Source: Sphingobium sp.
GTDB lineage: Bacteria; Pseudomonadota; Alphaproteobacteria; Sphingomonadales; Sphingomonadaceae
Assembly (NCBI GenBank): GCA_023266575.1
Contig: JAHFPV010000003.1
Coordinates: forward strand, 172,308 to 236,307
Direction: 5' to 3'
Length of the DNA stretch: 64,000 nt
Position numbers and translations under genes: made by a program. The notes beneath the pieces were generated by a model. That model searched no databases. It worked only from the letters and a program-made list of their open reading frames with translations, and was not told the DNA's origin. Positions 33,014 through 40,079 of the stretch are shown here, one piece after another. Positions within the stretch are counted from its first letter, which is position 1. The number at the start of each line of letters is the position of its first letter.

Positions 33014-35302
33014 CTATTTGCGGGCAGGGCGCGCGAGTCCCTGTTTTGCCAGCAGCTCTGTTATGGCGGTGGATGGCATGGCCGCGCCGAAATGATAGCC
33101 TTGCCCATAATGACATCCGCCTGCGCGCAGATAGTCGACCTGGTGGCTGTTCTCCACCCCCTCCGCCACCGTGCGAATGCCAAGGCTATAGGCAAGGTTC
33201 AGCACCGTGCGGACGATCGCGGCATCGTCCGGGTCGGTCTCCAGATCGCGCACGAAGCGCTGGTCGATTTTGATGATGTCGATCGGAAATTGCTTGAGGT
33301 GGGAGAGGGAAGCATAGCCAGTCCCGAAATCATCGAGGGCAATAGAGACTCCAGCGTCGCTCAGCCGCTTCAGCACCTGTCCGACGTGGTCAGCATTGCG
33401 GCCCAGAAAGACCGATTCGGTTACCTCTAGCTCGATCACCGCCGGAGGCAGGCCTGCCTGTGCCAGTTGCTCCAGCAAATGATCGACGAAATTGTCATCA
33501 TTCAGGTCCGCGCCTGACACGTTGAGGGCCACATGGCCGATCGACAAGCCGGCGTCGCGCCAGCGGACACAGTCGGCAATGACACCCTCTATCATCCGAC
33601 CGGTGATGGCAGGCCCCAGTTCGGGATGTTCGAAGGCGGCGGCAATGTCGGCTGGCATAATGACTGTGCCATCGGCGGTCGGGCAGCGGAACAGCGCCTC
33701 GAACCCTACGATCGCGCCGGTATCGAGTGCAATTTTGGGCTGATACCAGGGGCAGGGATGTTCCTGCGCCAGAACATGGCGGGCGCGGTCGAGCATGGCG
33801 GCTTCCCGATCCCAGCTTTCCAGCAGGTCAGGCCCAAATATTATGGCGCGGCCCCGGCCATTATTCTTGGCATGATAGAGGGCGATGTCGGCATGTTTGA
33901 CGAGGGCCGTCACATCCTCGCCATGGTCGGGGAACAGCGCAACGCCGATGCTGACCCGGCATTCGATTGGTCGACCACGATAGTCGAGCGGGGCGTGCAG
34001 ATGATCGGCGATGCGTGCCAGGATCGGCTGCAGCGCATCAGCGTCGGGCAGGCGGGTCAGCAGCACGGCGAATTCGTCACCGCCCATCCGCGCGACCAGA
34101 TCGCCCGGTCGCAGGGCGTGGCGCAACCGTCCGGCCACCGCGCACAACAGCGCGTCGCCTGCATCATGCCCGGCCGTGTCGTTGACCCGCTTGAATTCGT
34201 CCAGGTCAATGAGCAGCACGGCCAGTTGCGCCCGGTTATTCGACGCCGCCGTTGCTTGCGTGACGGCAGCCATGAAATGGGCGCGATTGGCAAGGCCCGT
34301 CAGCGCGTCCGTCATGGCCAGACGCTCCAGATGCCGTTCGGCCTGCTTGCGTTCGGTAATGTCGACCACGCTCGTCATGAAGCAAGGCTCGCCGTCAATC
34401 ACGATCGGGCGGGACGACAGGAGCGCATGGCGAAGCGCGCCATCGGCGCGGCGTAGCCGACACTCGAAATTGTCGACCGCCTCGCCGCGCTGGAGCATTG
34501 CGAACAGTTCTTCGCGTACCGGCAGGTCTACATAGGTCTGCTCGACATGGCCAAGGTTGACATCATGCCCTGCCGCATAGGCATCGGTGGCAGCGCGGTT
34601 GAGGCGCAGGATATTTCCGTCATAGCGTGTGACGAGCAAGGGCAGCGGCACGGCCATGAACATCCGTTCCAGCGTGTCGCGACTATTGGCCAGTTCCAGC
34701 TGCACGGCGTGTGCGACCTGCCCGGCGGTCCATTCCTGCCGCTGGAGTCGGTTGTTCCGGGCGATCGCGATCCACATGCCGCAATGGAGCATTAGCATGG
34801 CCAGGATCATGCCAGGTATGGTGGAGGAAAGCGGGGCGGGGGAAAGATAGCCGATCAGCAAAGCGATGCAGCAGCCCAGCCCGCCGCCGACATTGCCGCG
34901 AAAACTGGTGGGAACGACCAGGTAGAATACCAGCGGCAGCATGACGAGGACAAAGATGGCGATGTCACTGCGCGAACTGACGAGGAAGGCGACGCCGATG
35001 GCGGTCACGACCTGCCAGGCGAAGCAGATGCGCTCGACCGCCGGGAAGCTGGTCATCCGGCGGCATAGCGACAGGCAGACGATGGACCAGACAATCACCG
35101 TCAACCGAGCAGGCACCGCGACCCAGAAATGCGACGTCCCGGCAAAGCGCCAGTCGCTCAACAGGAAGAGCGTGTTGAGAATTGCGGAGAGGATGAACAG
35201 GATGCGGGCATGGCGTCGCGATTCGGGCAGGCGTTCGGCCTGGAACGCCGCTTCCCGTTCGGCTAGGCGAAATTCGCCACTGATGGTCGAAAGCCCGCTC
35301 AC
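33014..35302 (-). CDS. Membrane GGDEF-EAL cyclic-di-GMP protein
   Basis: About 762 residues from GTG 35302; the frame stays open to ATG 35449, but that longer start runs over the promoter of rpsL. Layout: five or six N-terminal transmembrane helices, a PAS domain (LERMFMAVPLPLLVTRYDGN), GGDEF with ARMGGDEFAVLL intact, and EAL with VGFEALFRC and DDFGTGYASLSHLKQFP intact. Both enzyme activities are possible; GGDEF may instead bind GTP as a regulator. It probably senses an envelope signal. Alone in its transcription unit. Confidence 0.92.
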   Translation of the reverse strand: MSGLSTISGEFRLAEREAAFQAERLPESRRHARILFILSAILNTLFLLSDWRFAGTSHFWVAVPARLTVIVWSIVCLSLCRRMTSFPAVERICFAWQVVTAIGVAFLVSSRSDIAIFVLVMLPLVFYLVVPTSFRGNVGGGLGCCIALLIGYLSPAPLSSTIPGMILAMLMLHCGMWIAIARNNRLQRQEWTAGQVAHAVQLELANSRDTLERMFMAVPLPLLVTRYDGNILRLNRAATDAYAAGHDVNLGHVEQTYVDLPVREELFAMLQRGEAVDNFECRLRRADGALRHALLSSRPIVIDGEPCFMTSVVDITERKQAERHLERLAMTDALTGLANRAHFMAAVTQATAASNNRAQLAVLLIDLDEFKRVNDTAGHDAGDALLCAVAGRLRHALRPGDLVARMGGDEFAVLLTRLPDADALQPILARIADHLHAPLDYRGRPIECRVSIGVALFPDHGEDVTALVKHADIALYHAKNNGRGRAIIFGPDLLESWDREAAMLDRARHVLAQEHPCPWYQPKIALDTGAIVGFEALFRCPTADGTVIMPADIAAAFEHPELGPAITGRMIEGVIADCVRWRDAGLSIGHVALNVSGADLNDDNFVDHLLEQLAQAGLPPAVIELEVTESVFLGRNADHVGQVLKRLSDAGVSIALDDFGTGYASLSHLKQFPIDIIKIDQRFVRDLETDPDDAAIVRTVLNLAYSLGIRTVAEGVENSHQVDYLRAGGCHYGQGYHFGAAMPSTAITELLAKQGLARPARK

Positions 35303-35429
35303 GCCCTGTCCAGTTGACGCACCCCTTTGGTGCTGGGCGCAAAATAGGGCAGGCAGGGTTAGTAATTCCCTAACCAGCCTCCATCGGCCCCGCCCGGTCA
35401 GCGGCATGGCCAGCCTGTCGGCGATTGGC

Positions 35430-35458
35430 TTGACCCTTTGCCCCGGCATCGCTATAGG
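35430..35458 (+). promoter_or_regulatory. Sigma70-type promoter for the str operon
   Basis: -35 TTGACC (35430-35435) and -10 TATAGG (35453-35458) with a 17-base spacer, about 210 bases before rpsL, pointing toward the ribosomal genes. The leader between them and rpsL is GC-rich with an inverted-repeat flavour, but no defined element was recognised there. Confidence 0.65.
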
Positions 35459-35668: not shown

Positions 35669-36040
35669 ATGCCAACAATCAACCAGCTGGTCCGCAAGGG
35701 CCGCGAACCGCAGAAGGCCAAGTCGAAGGTCCCTGCCATGGATGCGAACCCGCAAAAGCGTGGCGTTTGCACCCGCGTCTATACCACGACCCCGAAAAAG
35801 CCGAACTCCGCGCTCCGCAAGGTGGCCAAGGTTCGCCTGGTCAACCAGCGCGAAGTCATCACCTATATTCCTGGTGAAGGCCACAACCTGCAGGAACATA
35901 GCGTCGTGCTGATCCGTGGCGGTCGTGTGCGAGATCTTCCGGGCGTGCGTTACCACGTTCTTCGCGGCGTTCTGGATACCCAGGGCGTCAAGGATCGCAA
36001 GCAGAGCCGTTCGAAATACGGCGCCAAGCGTCCTAAGTAA
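35669..36040 (+). CDS. rpsL: 30S ribosomal protein S12
   Basis: A 123-residue S12 protein of the decoding centre. Lys-43 ([15 protein letters not shown]) is the common residue, but position 88 is Arg ([10 protein letters not shown], codon CGA at 35930-35932) where E. coli has Lys; in E. coli Lys88Arg confers streptomycin resistance. The ATG at 35669 gives the conserved start [10 protein letters not shown]; an upstream in-frame GTG is not needed. First gene of the str operon. Confidence 0.98.
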
Positions 36041-36053
36041 GGGAGACTAAAAT

Positions 36054-36524
36054 ATGTCACGTCGTCGTCGCCCCGAAAAGCGCATCATCCTGCCCGATCC
36101 CAAATATGGCGATCAGGTTCTGTCGAAGTTCATGAACTCCATCATGCAGGACGGCAAGAAAGCCGTTGCTGAATCGATCGTTTATGGCGCCCTGGAAACC
36201 GTCGAGGCTCGCGCCAAGAAGGATCCGATCGGCATGTTCCATGACGCGCTCAACAACATCAAGCCGGGCATCGAAGTCCGCAGCCGCCGCGTTGGCGGTG
36301 CGACCTATCAGGTTCCCGTCGAAGTGCGTCCTGAGCGTTCGCAGGCTCTGGCCATCCGCTGGCTGATCACCGCTGCGCGCAACCGCAGCGAGACCACCAT
36401 GGCGGCCCGCCTGTCGGGTGAGCTGATGGATGCAGCCAACAACCGTGGTAACGCGGTCAAGAAGCGCGAAGACACGCACCGCATGGCGGAAGCGAACCGC
36501 GCCTTCTCGCACTATCGCTGGTAA
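36054..36524 (+). CDS. rpsG: 30S ribosomal protein S7
   Basis: A 156-residue S7, which nucleates 30S head assembly and can autoregulate the str operon in E. coli. [15 protein letters not shown] and the C-terminal [20 protein letters not shown] are conserved. 13 bases after rpsL. The 160-base gap to fusA contains an imperfect inverted repeat, AATCCATCCG with CGGACGGATT (one mismatch). Confidence 0.98.
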
Positions 36525-36684
36525 AAAGATTGGCGGGGCGGCGGTCGATCGACAGTTGCCCCGTTTATCGCTCTTAAAAATCCATCCGTTCGTCGTGGGC
36601 CTACCCATGGCGGACGGATTGGTTTAGGGGCCACGCAAGAACACGAATCCCCAACCGCCGGTGCGCCGGCAACGGAGAAGCATC

Positions 36685-38757
<2,073 letters not shown>

Positions 38758-38888
38758 AAATCCTGATCCGCCGCGTGCGAACGGGGCGGTTAGGGCTTTC
38801 ATTATGCGAATTTGCTGCTATGGACGCGCCTTCGCAAGGCGCGGCCGAGCGGTCAAACCCATCGGATTTGATTAGAAGGTAGGATAAA

Positions 38889-40079
38889 ATGGCGAAAGCT
38901 AAGTTTGAGCGGACGAAGCCGCATTGCAACATCGGCACCATCGGTCACGTCGACCATGGCAAGACCTCGCTGACCGCAGCGATCACGAAGGTGCTGGCCG
39001 AAACCGGCGGCGCGACCTTCACGTCGTATGACAATATCGACAAGGCGCCTGAAGAGCGCGAGCGCGGCATCACCATTTCGACCGCCCACGTCGAATATGA
39101 AACCGAACAGCGCCACTATGCGCACGTCGATTGCCCCGGTCACGCTGACTATGTGAAGAACATGATCACCGGTGCCGCGCAGATGGACGGCGCGATCCTG
39201 GTCGTGTCCGCCACCGACGGCCCGATGCCGCAGACCCGCGAGCACATCCTGCTCGCCCGTCAGGTCGGCGTGCCGCAGATGGTCGTGTTCATGAACAAGG
39301 TTGACCTGGTCGACGATCCAGAAATTCTGGAACTGGTCGAGCTGGAAATCCGCGAGCTGCTGTCGTCCTACGACTTTGACGGCGACAACATCCCCATCAT
39401 TCCGGGTTCGGCTGTTTGCGCCCTCAACGGCACCAACAACGAAATCGGCCATGACGCCGTTCTGAAGCTGATGCAGTCGGTCGACAGCTGGATCCCGCAG
39501 CCCGACCGTCCGGTCGACAAGCCCTTCCTGATGCCGATCGAAGACGTGTTCTCGATCTCCGGCCGTGGTACGGTTGTGACCGGCCGCGTCGAAACCGGCA
39601 TCGTCAAGGTTGGTGAAGAAGTCGAGATCGTCGGCCTCAAGGACACCCGCAAGACCGTCGTCACCGGCGTTGAAATGTTCCGCAAGCTGCTCGATCAGGG
39701 TGAAGCTGGCGACAATATCGGCGCGCTGGTTCGTGGCGTTGGCCGTGAAGACGTCGAGCGTGGCCAGGTTCTCTGCAAGCCCGGCTCGATCAAGCCGCAC
39801 ACCGAGTTCGAATCGGAAGTCTATGTTCTGTCGAAGGAAGAGGGTGGCCGTCACACGCCGTTCTTCGCCAACTACCGTCCGCAGTTCTACTTCCGCACCA
39901 CCGACGTGACCGGCGAAGTCGTGCTGCCTGAAGGCACCGAGATGGTCATGCCCGGCGACAACGTGAAGCTTGGCGTCAAGCTCATCGCCCCGATCGCGAT
40001 GGAGCAGGGCCTGCGCTTCTCGATCCGCGAAGGCGGCCGGACCGTCGGTTCGGGGGTTGTTTCGGCAGTCACCAAGTAA
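38889..40079 (+). CDS. tuf: Elongation factor Tu
   Basis: A 396-residue GTPase that brings aminoacyl-tRNA to the ribosome. Motifs [19 protein letters not shown] and NKVDLVDDP are intact. The 131-base gap after fusA holds a small hairpin (GCGCCTT / AAGGCGC at 38826-38842). A candidate terminator follows the gene. No second tuf copy is seen in the window. Confidence 0.98.

Follow-up and report, generated by a model that had tools for sequence, protein, structure and literature searches.

Arg88 in ribosomal protein S12 of a Sphingobium sp.: a probably ancestral and fixed streptomycin-resistance residue of the core sphingomonads

Introduction

Why does ribosomal protein S12 of a Sphingobium sp. 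carry arginine at position 88, where Escherichia coli has lysine, and would this residue account for natural resistance to streptomycin? The question arises from rpsL in a 64,000-nucleotide stretch of the genome (the window; contig JAHFPV010000003.1, positions 172,308 to 236,307).

Lys88 and Lys43 of S12 are located at the drug site, and two Agrobacterium fabrum mutants that had become resistant spontaneously carried K88R (PMC10521367). An initial sequence-only reading of the window cited Lys88Arg as a known resistance change in E. coli. This is well founded, as a single K88R mutant is reported to have a streptomycin MIC above 32,768 mg/L, against 32 mg/L for the wild type (PMC13390409). The same reading proposed that Arg88 would explain natural resistance in sphingomonads. 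That proposal is supported in outline but is not new. Arginine at RpsL position 87 (numbered without Met) in Sphingomonadaceae and Erythrobacteraceae was put forward in 2016 as a possible explanation of their natural streptomycin resistance (PMC4741004). Lysine 88 to arginine was likewise invoked for Sphingopyxis lindanitolerans (PMC6771000), and an S12 mutation was offered as a possible cause of resistance in Rhizorhabdus FW153 (PMC12785184). Here, we delineate where Arg88 occurs, when it arose, what changed with it, and which other explanations survive.

Results

The rpsL gene lies at positions 35669 to 36040 of the window on the plus strand, with an ATG start at 35669-35671, and encodes 123 amino acids. 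Its product matched TIGR00981 (rpsL_bact, uS12) over residues 1-123, its full length, with 220 bits against a curated cut-off of 112.95. No second rpsL match was found in the 3.62 Mb genome. Counted from the initial Met, codon 88 (35930-35932) is CGA, encoding Arg. Alignment to the best-matching S12 chain of a structure library, which is of the E. coli type, placed Lys at the same site. The codon count and the alignment together confirm the residue, codon and position first reported for this locus. Codon 43 (35795-35797) is AAA, so that Lys43, the other main streptomycin residue, is indeed unchanged; it is also Lys in all 76 Arg88 genomes of our comparison. A proven resistance residue at S12 position 43 or 88 is one mark of a target-site allele, and Arg88 makes this gene a candidate for such an allele. 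Comparison of S12 within the family revealed two further markers of the Arg88 clade, Arg61 (CGC, 35849-35851) and Ser19 (TCG, 35723-35725).

Directly after rpsL, and on the same strand, is the operon gene that we take to be rpsG (S7; 36054-36524), followed by the presumed fusA (EF-G; 36685-38757) and tuf (EF-Tu; 38889-40079), all three named from position and similarity. The order rpsL-rpsG-fusA-tuf is present as open frames, and each was found by similarity in the loci of relatives. Two minus-strand frames were also observed. One, of 811 amino acids (33014-35449), is divergent from rpsL and by eye resembles a membrane GGDEF/EAL regulator. The other, of 733 amino acids (36601-38802), is antisense to fusA and probably a by-product of its codon bias.

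Residue 88 was then read among relatives, using the family and genus codes of the genome database, whose family f1 holds Zymomonas, Pacificimonas and Polymorphobacter together. A pattern permitting any codon 88 matched 375 of 396 genomes of the order, and AAA or AAG was present in all 66 of the matches listed from families other than f1. Within f1, a pattern search found codon 88 without an initial C in 47 of 397 genomes, all 47 being AAA or AAG. After removal of one contaminant (G591), Lys88 is present in at least 46 of the 397, a lower bound set by the strict pattern, with the remaining 350 read only in part. These Lys88 lineages include Pacificimonas, Hankyongella and Polymorphobacter. We also picked 80 f1 genomes, mostly from those with no Lys88 match, to span the genera and the window's own genus. 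Some match was obtained in 74 and rpsL in 72 (two gave stray matches only and six none). All 72 readable genes encode Arg88 (71 CGC, 1 CGA), and all 14 other genomes searched in the window's genus read CGC. As Arg88 is shared by these 14 congeners and by 76 core-clade genomes (window included), it is neither chance nor a sequencing slip.

Several of these genomes could be named. Lys88 was read in Pacificimonas pallii (L060; 100% identity over 5,572 bases), Hankyongella ginsenosidimutans (L056; 100% over 5,274 bases) and Polymorphobacter megasporae (G459; plasmid stretches at 100%). Arg88 was read in Zymomonas mobilis ATCC 10988 (G201; plasmid stretches at 100%). The sequence-only reading had raised the possibility that Arg88 is general. 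Fixation holds among the core sphingomonads that were sampled, but Lys88 persists in early branches of the same database family. Within Sphingomonadales, the comparison that it proposed is divided accordingly, with Arg in the core clade and Lys in the early-branching f1 lineages and in the listed matches from other families of the order.

Beyond the order, a pattern for Arg or Ser at position 88 matched 11 of 385 genomes of the class, with genomes failing it for any other reason scored as misses. Five belong to f1 and six lie elsewhere, the latter with Arg in five (three f13, one f61, one f157) and Ser in one (f174). In the phylum, scored in the same way, 19 of 398 genomes matched; f1 contributed 18 (of 19 drawn), and the last was G832, again from f157. 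The rows with Arg88 outside the sphingomonad order are L050, L051, L052, L042 and L044, from families f13, f61 and f157. The f174 genome (G965; rows L043 and L171) has a natural S12 in which both main streptomycin residues are changed, to Arg43 and Ser88. One core genome (G100; row L094) reads GGKVRDLPG, the sole case among the 76 of Lys86 beside Arg88.

Codon usage indicates how the window came to read CGA. Of the 76 Arg88 genomes, 73 have CGC at codon 88 and 3 have CGA; among the 29 Lys88 genomes compared it is AAG in 28 and AAA in one. Since nearly all Arg88 relatives read CGC, including the 14 congeners, the window codon would most simply be a later silent change from CGC. This alters one argument made at the outset, that AAG to CGA needs more than one base change and hence that the residue looks fixed. 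Fixation held, while the codon route did not, as CGA is probably a recent silent change and not a record of the Lys-to-Arg step. Among the 93 Arg codons of the window's rpsL, rpsG, fusA and tuf, no other is CGA. Across the same four genes in the 76 genomes, CGA makes up 19 of 7,195 Arg codons, yet it occupies codon 88 in 3 of 76. The three genomes (the window, L156 and L093) are scattered, and all read GTG CGA GAT CTT; CGT and CGG never occur at codon 88 among the 76. A preference for CGA at this codon may exist, although the signal is weak and chance is possible.

To place the change, phylogenies were prepared from proteins other than S12. A tree of S7, EF-G and EF-Tu contained 121 rows: 30 taken as f1 Lys88, 10 from other families of the order, 75 f1 Arg88 rows plus the window, and 5 from elsewhere in the class. 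The f1 Arg88 rows formed nearly one clade, the exception being Pacificimonas, which was nested inside. With Pacificimonas, the contaminant and the five far rows removed (112 rows), a single change was needed, with support of 87. A separate tree of 16 other ribosomal proteins from the S10 and spc operons, covering 39 genomes, also gave one change. It united its 21 Arg88 genomes, that of the window among them, in one clade (100/98) present in 100% of 200 bootstrap trees. On the strength of both trees, Lys88 is the ancestral state, and one ancient change accounts for Arg88 across the genomes sampled.

Two apparent reversions to Lys88 within the core clade were rejected, each having another explanation. 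The rpsL contig of G591 (row L067) is a contaminant that groups with rows from outside the order. Pacificimonas (L058-L060) has S12 and S7 closest to the Lys88 lineages. It joins a Lys88 genus (g44) at 100/100 in the 16-protein tree, and its placement with the Lys88 lineages is not rejected by clade tests (p-AU 0.35 for EF-G and 0.28 for EF-Tu). Pacificimonas and Polymorphobacter have independently been placed in Sphingosinicellaceae (clade 2), the name Polymorphobacter now being divided between genera (PMC12210278).

The elongation factor genes of the window are a separate case. Its fusA and tuf (36685-40079) are discordant with the species tree, whereas S12, S7 and the 16 other ribosomal proteins of the window genome have their grouping or nearest match within its genus. 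EF-G has 690 residues where three congeners have 697, and the nearest match of EF-Tu lies in another genus (94.4%, versus 86-89%). Grouping with congeners was rejected for EF-Tu (p-AU 0.011) but not for EF-G (0.108). Replacement by gene transfer is possible. In another genome (G414; row L103), the fusA frame ends after 74 amino acids, reflecting a frameshift or assembly error.

The Arg88 branch carries two companion substitutions. Arg61 was present in 76 of 76 Arg88 genomes and in none of the 29 Lys88 f1 genomes, and Ser19 showed the same division (the contaminant L067, outside the 29, also has Ser19). A scan of the collection for Lys88 returned at least 119 loci, mostly Hyphomicrobiales, with Pacificimonas and Hankyongella the only recognised sphingomonads among the matches listed. 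In the 117 of these 119 loci whose S12 was readable, residue 61 was Phe, Tyr or His, never Arg. Of four other Arg88 rows in the class, Arg61 was present in one (f61) and absent in three. As all three substitutions fall on one branch, their association counts once; judged from these alignments, the co-occurrence is one event and no proof of mutual dependence.

RimO carries out the methylthio-Asp modification of S12. Its loss was rejected as a companion of Arg88: 29 of 32 genomes gave a RimO match above the cut-off, and the other three all have Lys88. In these three, G287, G438 (Pacificimonas) and G397 (Hankyongella; 86% complete), the S12 methylthio-Asp may be lacking.

Published phenotypes follow the same lineages. 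In a survey with 10 ug discs (PMC11123896, Table 5), isolates of Sphingomonas, Novosphingobium, Blastomonas and Rhizorhabdus and three of Erythrobacter were streptomycin-resistant and kanamycin-susceptible (7 of 7). Polymorphobacter FW250 was streptomycin-susceptible, while resisting kanamycin, tetracycline, chloramphenicol, erythromycin and polymyxin B (PMC11123896). The isolates were typed by 16S, such that residue 88 is assigned by lineage, and FW250 is the one Lys88-lineage sphingomonad in the disc set. Among other bacteria surveyed, Brevundimonas, Falsiroseomonas, two Paracoccaceae and Rubrivivax were susceptible. A Rhodopseudomonas isolate was resistant, and as it lies outside the Arg88 clade, other routes to resistance exist (PMC11123896). 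Further resistant strains have been described in Novosphingobium pituita (PMC11665390), an Erythromicrobium (PMC4082709) and two Sphingomonas isolates (PMC9506497).

A sensitive relative with Arg88 would speak against the proposed effect, as the sequence-only reading had itself noted. None that is well documented was found in the literature extracts, where one sentence on Zymomonas conflicts. Z. mobilis ZM4 and a derivative were tested at 200 and 300 ug/mL streptomycin, and tolerance was reported at 300 (data not shown there; PMC2877685). A review states that ZM4 does not grow at 100 ug/mL, in a passage whose own list of tested drugs omits streptomycin (PMC10992037). The two sources conflict, and the direct test is the better evidence; Arg88 was read in a different strain, ATCC 10988. 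Natural resistance is also exploited by an rpsL counterselection tool, in which an engineered rpsL allele sensitises sphingomonads (PMC11165598). The degree of sensitivity depended on the species; for S. granuli TFA, clones with the allele were picked at 200 mg/L by their slower growth (PMC11165598).

Other causes of resistance were sought in the window genome. A match to the rsmG family was found, with no stops. APH(6) (PF04655) gave no match there, in a search whose control matched 1 of 14 genomes, below the cut-off. AadA (PF13427) also gave no match, as did its control. For 16S rRNA, an Rfam model matched 5 of 30 family genomes and a DNA query 7 of 30, with the window genome in neither set. 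Motifs of the 530 loop, helix 27 and helix 44 were compared in two other Arg88 genomes, G149 and G429, using positions in what we take to be E. coli numbering. These agree with the Lys88 relatives apart from the following differences. One base differs in G429 just after the 912-915 stretch, beside the streptomycin-site motifs. Outside the drug site, a 5' motif was unmatched in G429 and a helix 27 loop base differs in G149. Drug-modifying enzymes are thus only partly excluded as a cause, and other mechanisms not fully.

Discussion

Our data suggest, with a probability of roughly 0.87, that the core sphingomonads inherited S12 Arg88 from a common ancestor as a fixed target-site residue conferring streptomycin resistance. 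The trees place its single origin on the stem of the core clade, later than the split of the Lys88 lineages (Pacificimonas, Polymorphobacter, Hankyongella and others). According to the literature, Lys88 and Lys43 sit at the streptomycin site between S12 and 16S rRNA, and K88R by itself gives very high resistance in E. coli. By analogy, Arg88 in the window organism would reduce binding of the drug at the decoding centre and leave translation functional. The organism is thus predicted to be naturally resistant without an acquired gene.

Arg88 could instead have been fixed for decoding accuracy or speed, with drug resistance as a by-product. We regard this as a serious possibility, at rather less than even odds. 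It is consistent with the fixation of Arg88 together with Arg61 and Ser19 on one branch, and with its persistence through the sampled core clade, where no true reversion was seen. However, streptomycin producers are common in soil, and given these, selection by the drug is equally plausible.

A related proposal, which we consider doubtful, is that several residues of S12 were remodelled as a set in the core sphingomonads. Arg88, Arg61 and Ser19 would have been fixed together, the companions making an otherwise costly resistance residue permanent. If this is true, sphingomonads with Lys88 (Pacificimonas and Polymorphobacter, both Sphingosinicellaceae, together with Hankyongella and others) would be naturally sensitive to streptomycin and would allow the effect of the set to be tested.

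It is improbable that Arg88 is a neutral lineage marker, with resistance arising mainly from poor uptake, efflux, a modifying enzyme or altered 16S rRNA. In favour of this reading, the resistant Rhodopseudomonas falls outside the Arg88 clade, FW250 demonstrates that wide multidrug resistance occurs in the order (PMC11123896), and the engineered rpsL allele sensitises species unequally (PMC11165598). Yet FW250 combines its multidrug resistance with susceptibility to streptomycin, and the seven isolates of Arg88 lineages show the reverse for kanamycin and streptomycin. Set against each other, these profiles indicate a streptomycin-specific cause and not general uptake (PMC11123896). K88R alone suffices for very high resistance in E. 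coli (PMC13390409), and sphingomonads become sensitive when given the engineered allele (PMC11165598). The 16S streptomycin-site motifs of G149 equal those of the Lys88 relatives, those of G429 having one base off beside them, and the window genome had no APH(6) match (with the weak control noted above).

Recent selection or acquisition in the window strain, through laboratory or agricultural streptomycin or gene transfer, has in its favour the unusual CGA, alone among the 93 Arg codons of four highly expressed genes, but it is refuted by the distribution and the trees. Arg88 is in 14 of 14 congeners, and both trees root the change in one event at the base of the core clade. In addition, the nearest match to the strain's S12 and S7 is a congener, and CGA differs only silently from the clade's CGC.

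The Arg88 feature is real, was correctly read and interpreted, and is already in print. The natural S12 Arg87/88 resistance described earlier (PMC4741004, PMC6771000) involves the same residue, gene and proposed effect, and the window genome is one more member. Gene and proposed effect are also shared with the Rhizorhabdus report, which gives only an S12 mutation (PMC12785184). Whereas PMC4741004 names two families, we find that early-branching lineages within the same database family keep Lys88, and we put the change on one branch with two companion substitutions. We thereby refine that account by showing where the trait ends, that it arose once and which residues changed with it; none of the literature extracts examined states these points.

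The rpsL K88R mutants of E. coli and other bacteria (PMC13390409, PMC10521367) share the Lys-to-Arg change at 88 with Lys43 untouched. In those cases the change is new under drug selection or engineered; here a large clade carries it as a fixed residue, its codon has diverged, and companion changes are present at 61 and 19. The rpsL1 counterselection system (Kaczmarczyk et al., cited in PMC11165598) likewise rests on natural sphingomonad resistance with S12 as the determinant, but it is a tool and not an account of how the residue evolved.

This locus is an ordinary but clean case of intrinsic resistance through an ancient, fixed target-site residue and not an acquired gene. Arg88 here is no marker of recent exposure to streptomycin. 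As the early-branching lineages have Lys88, streptomycin resistance should not be assumed for every sphingomonad, and enrichment on streptomycin may miss the Lys88 lineages.
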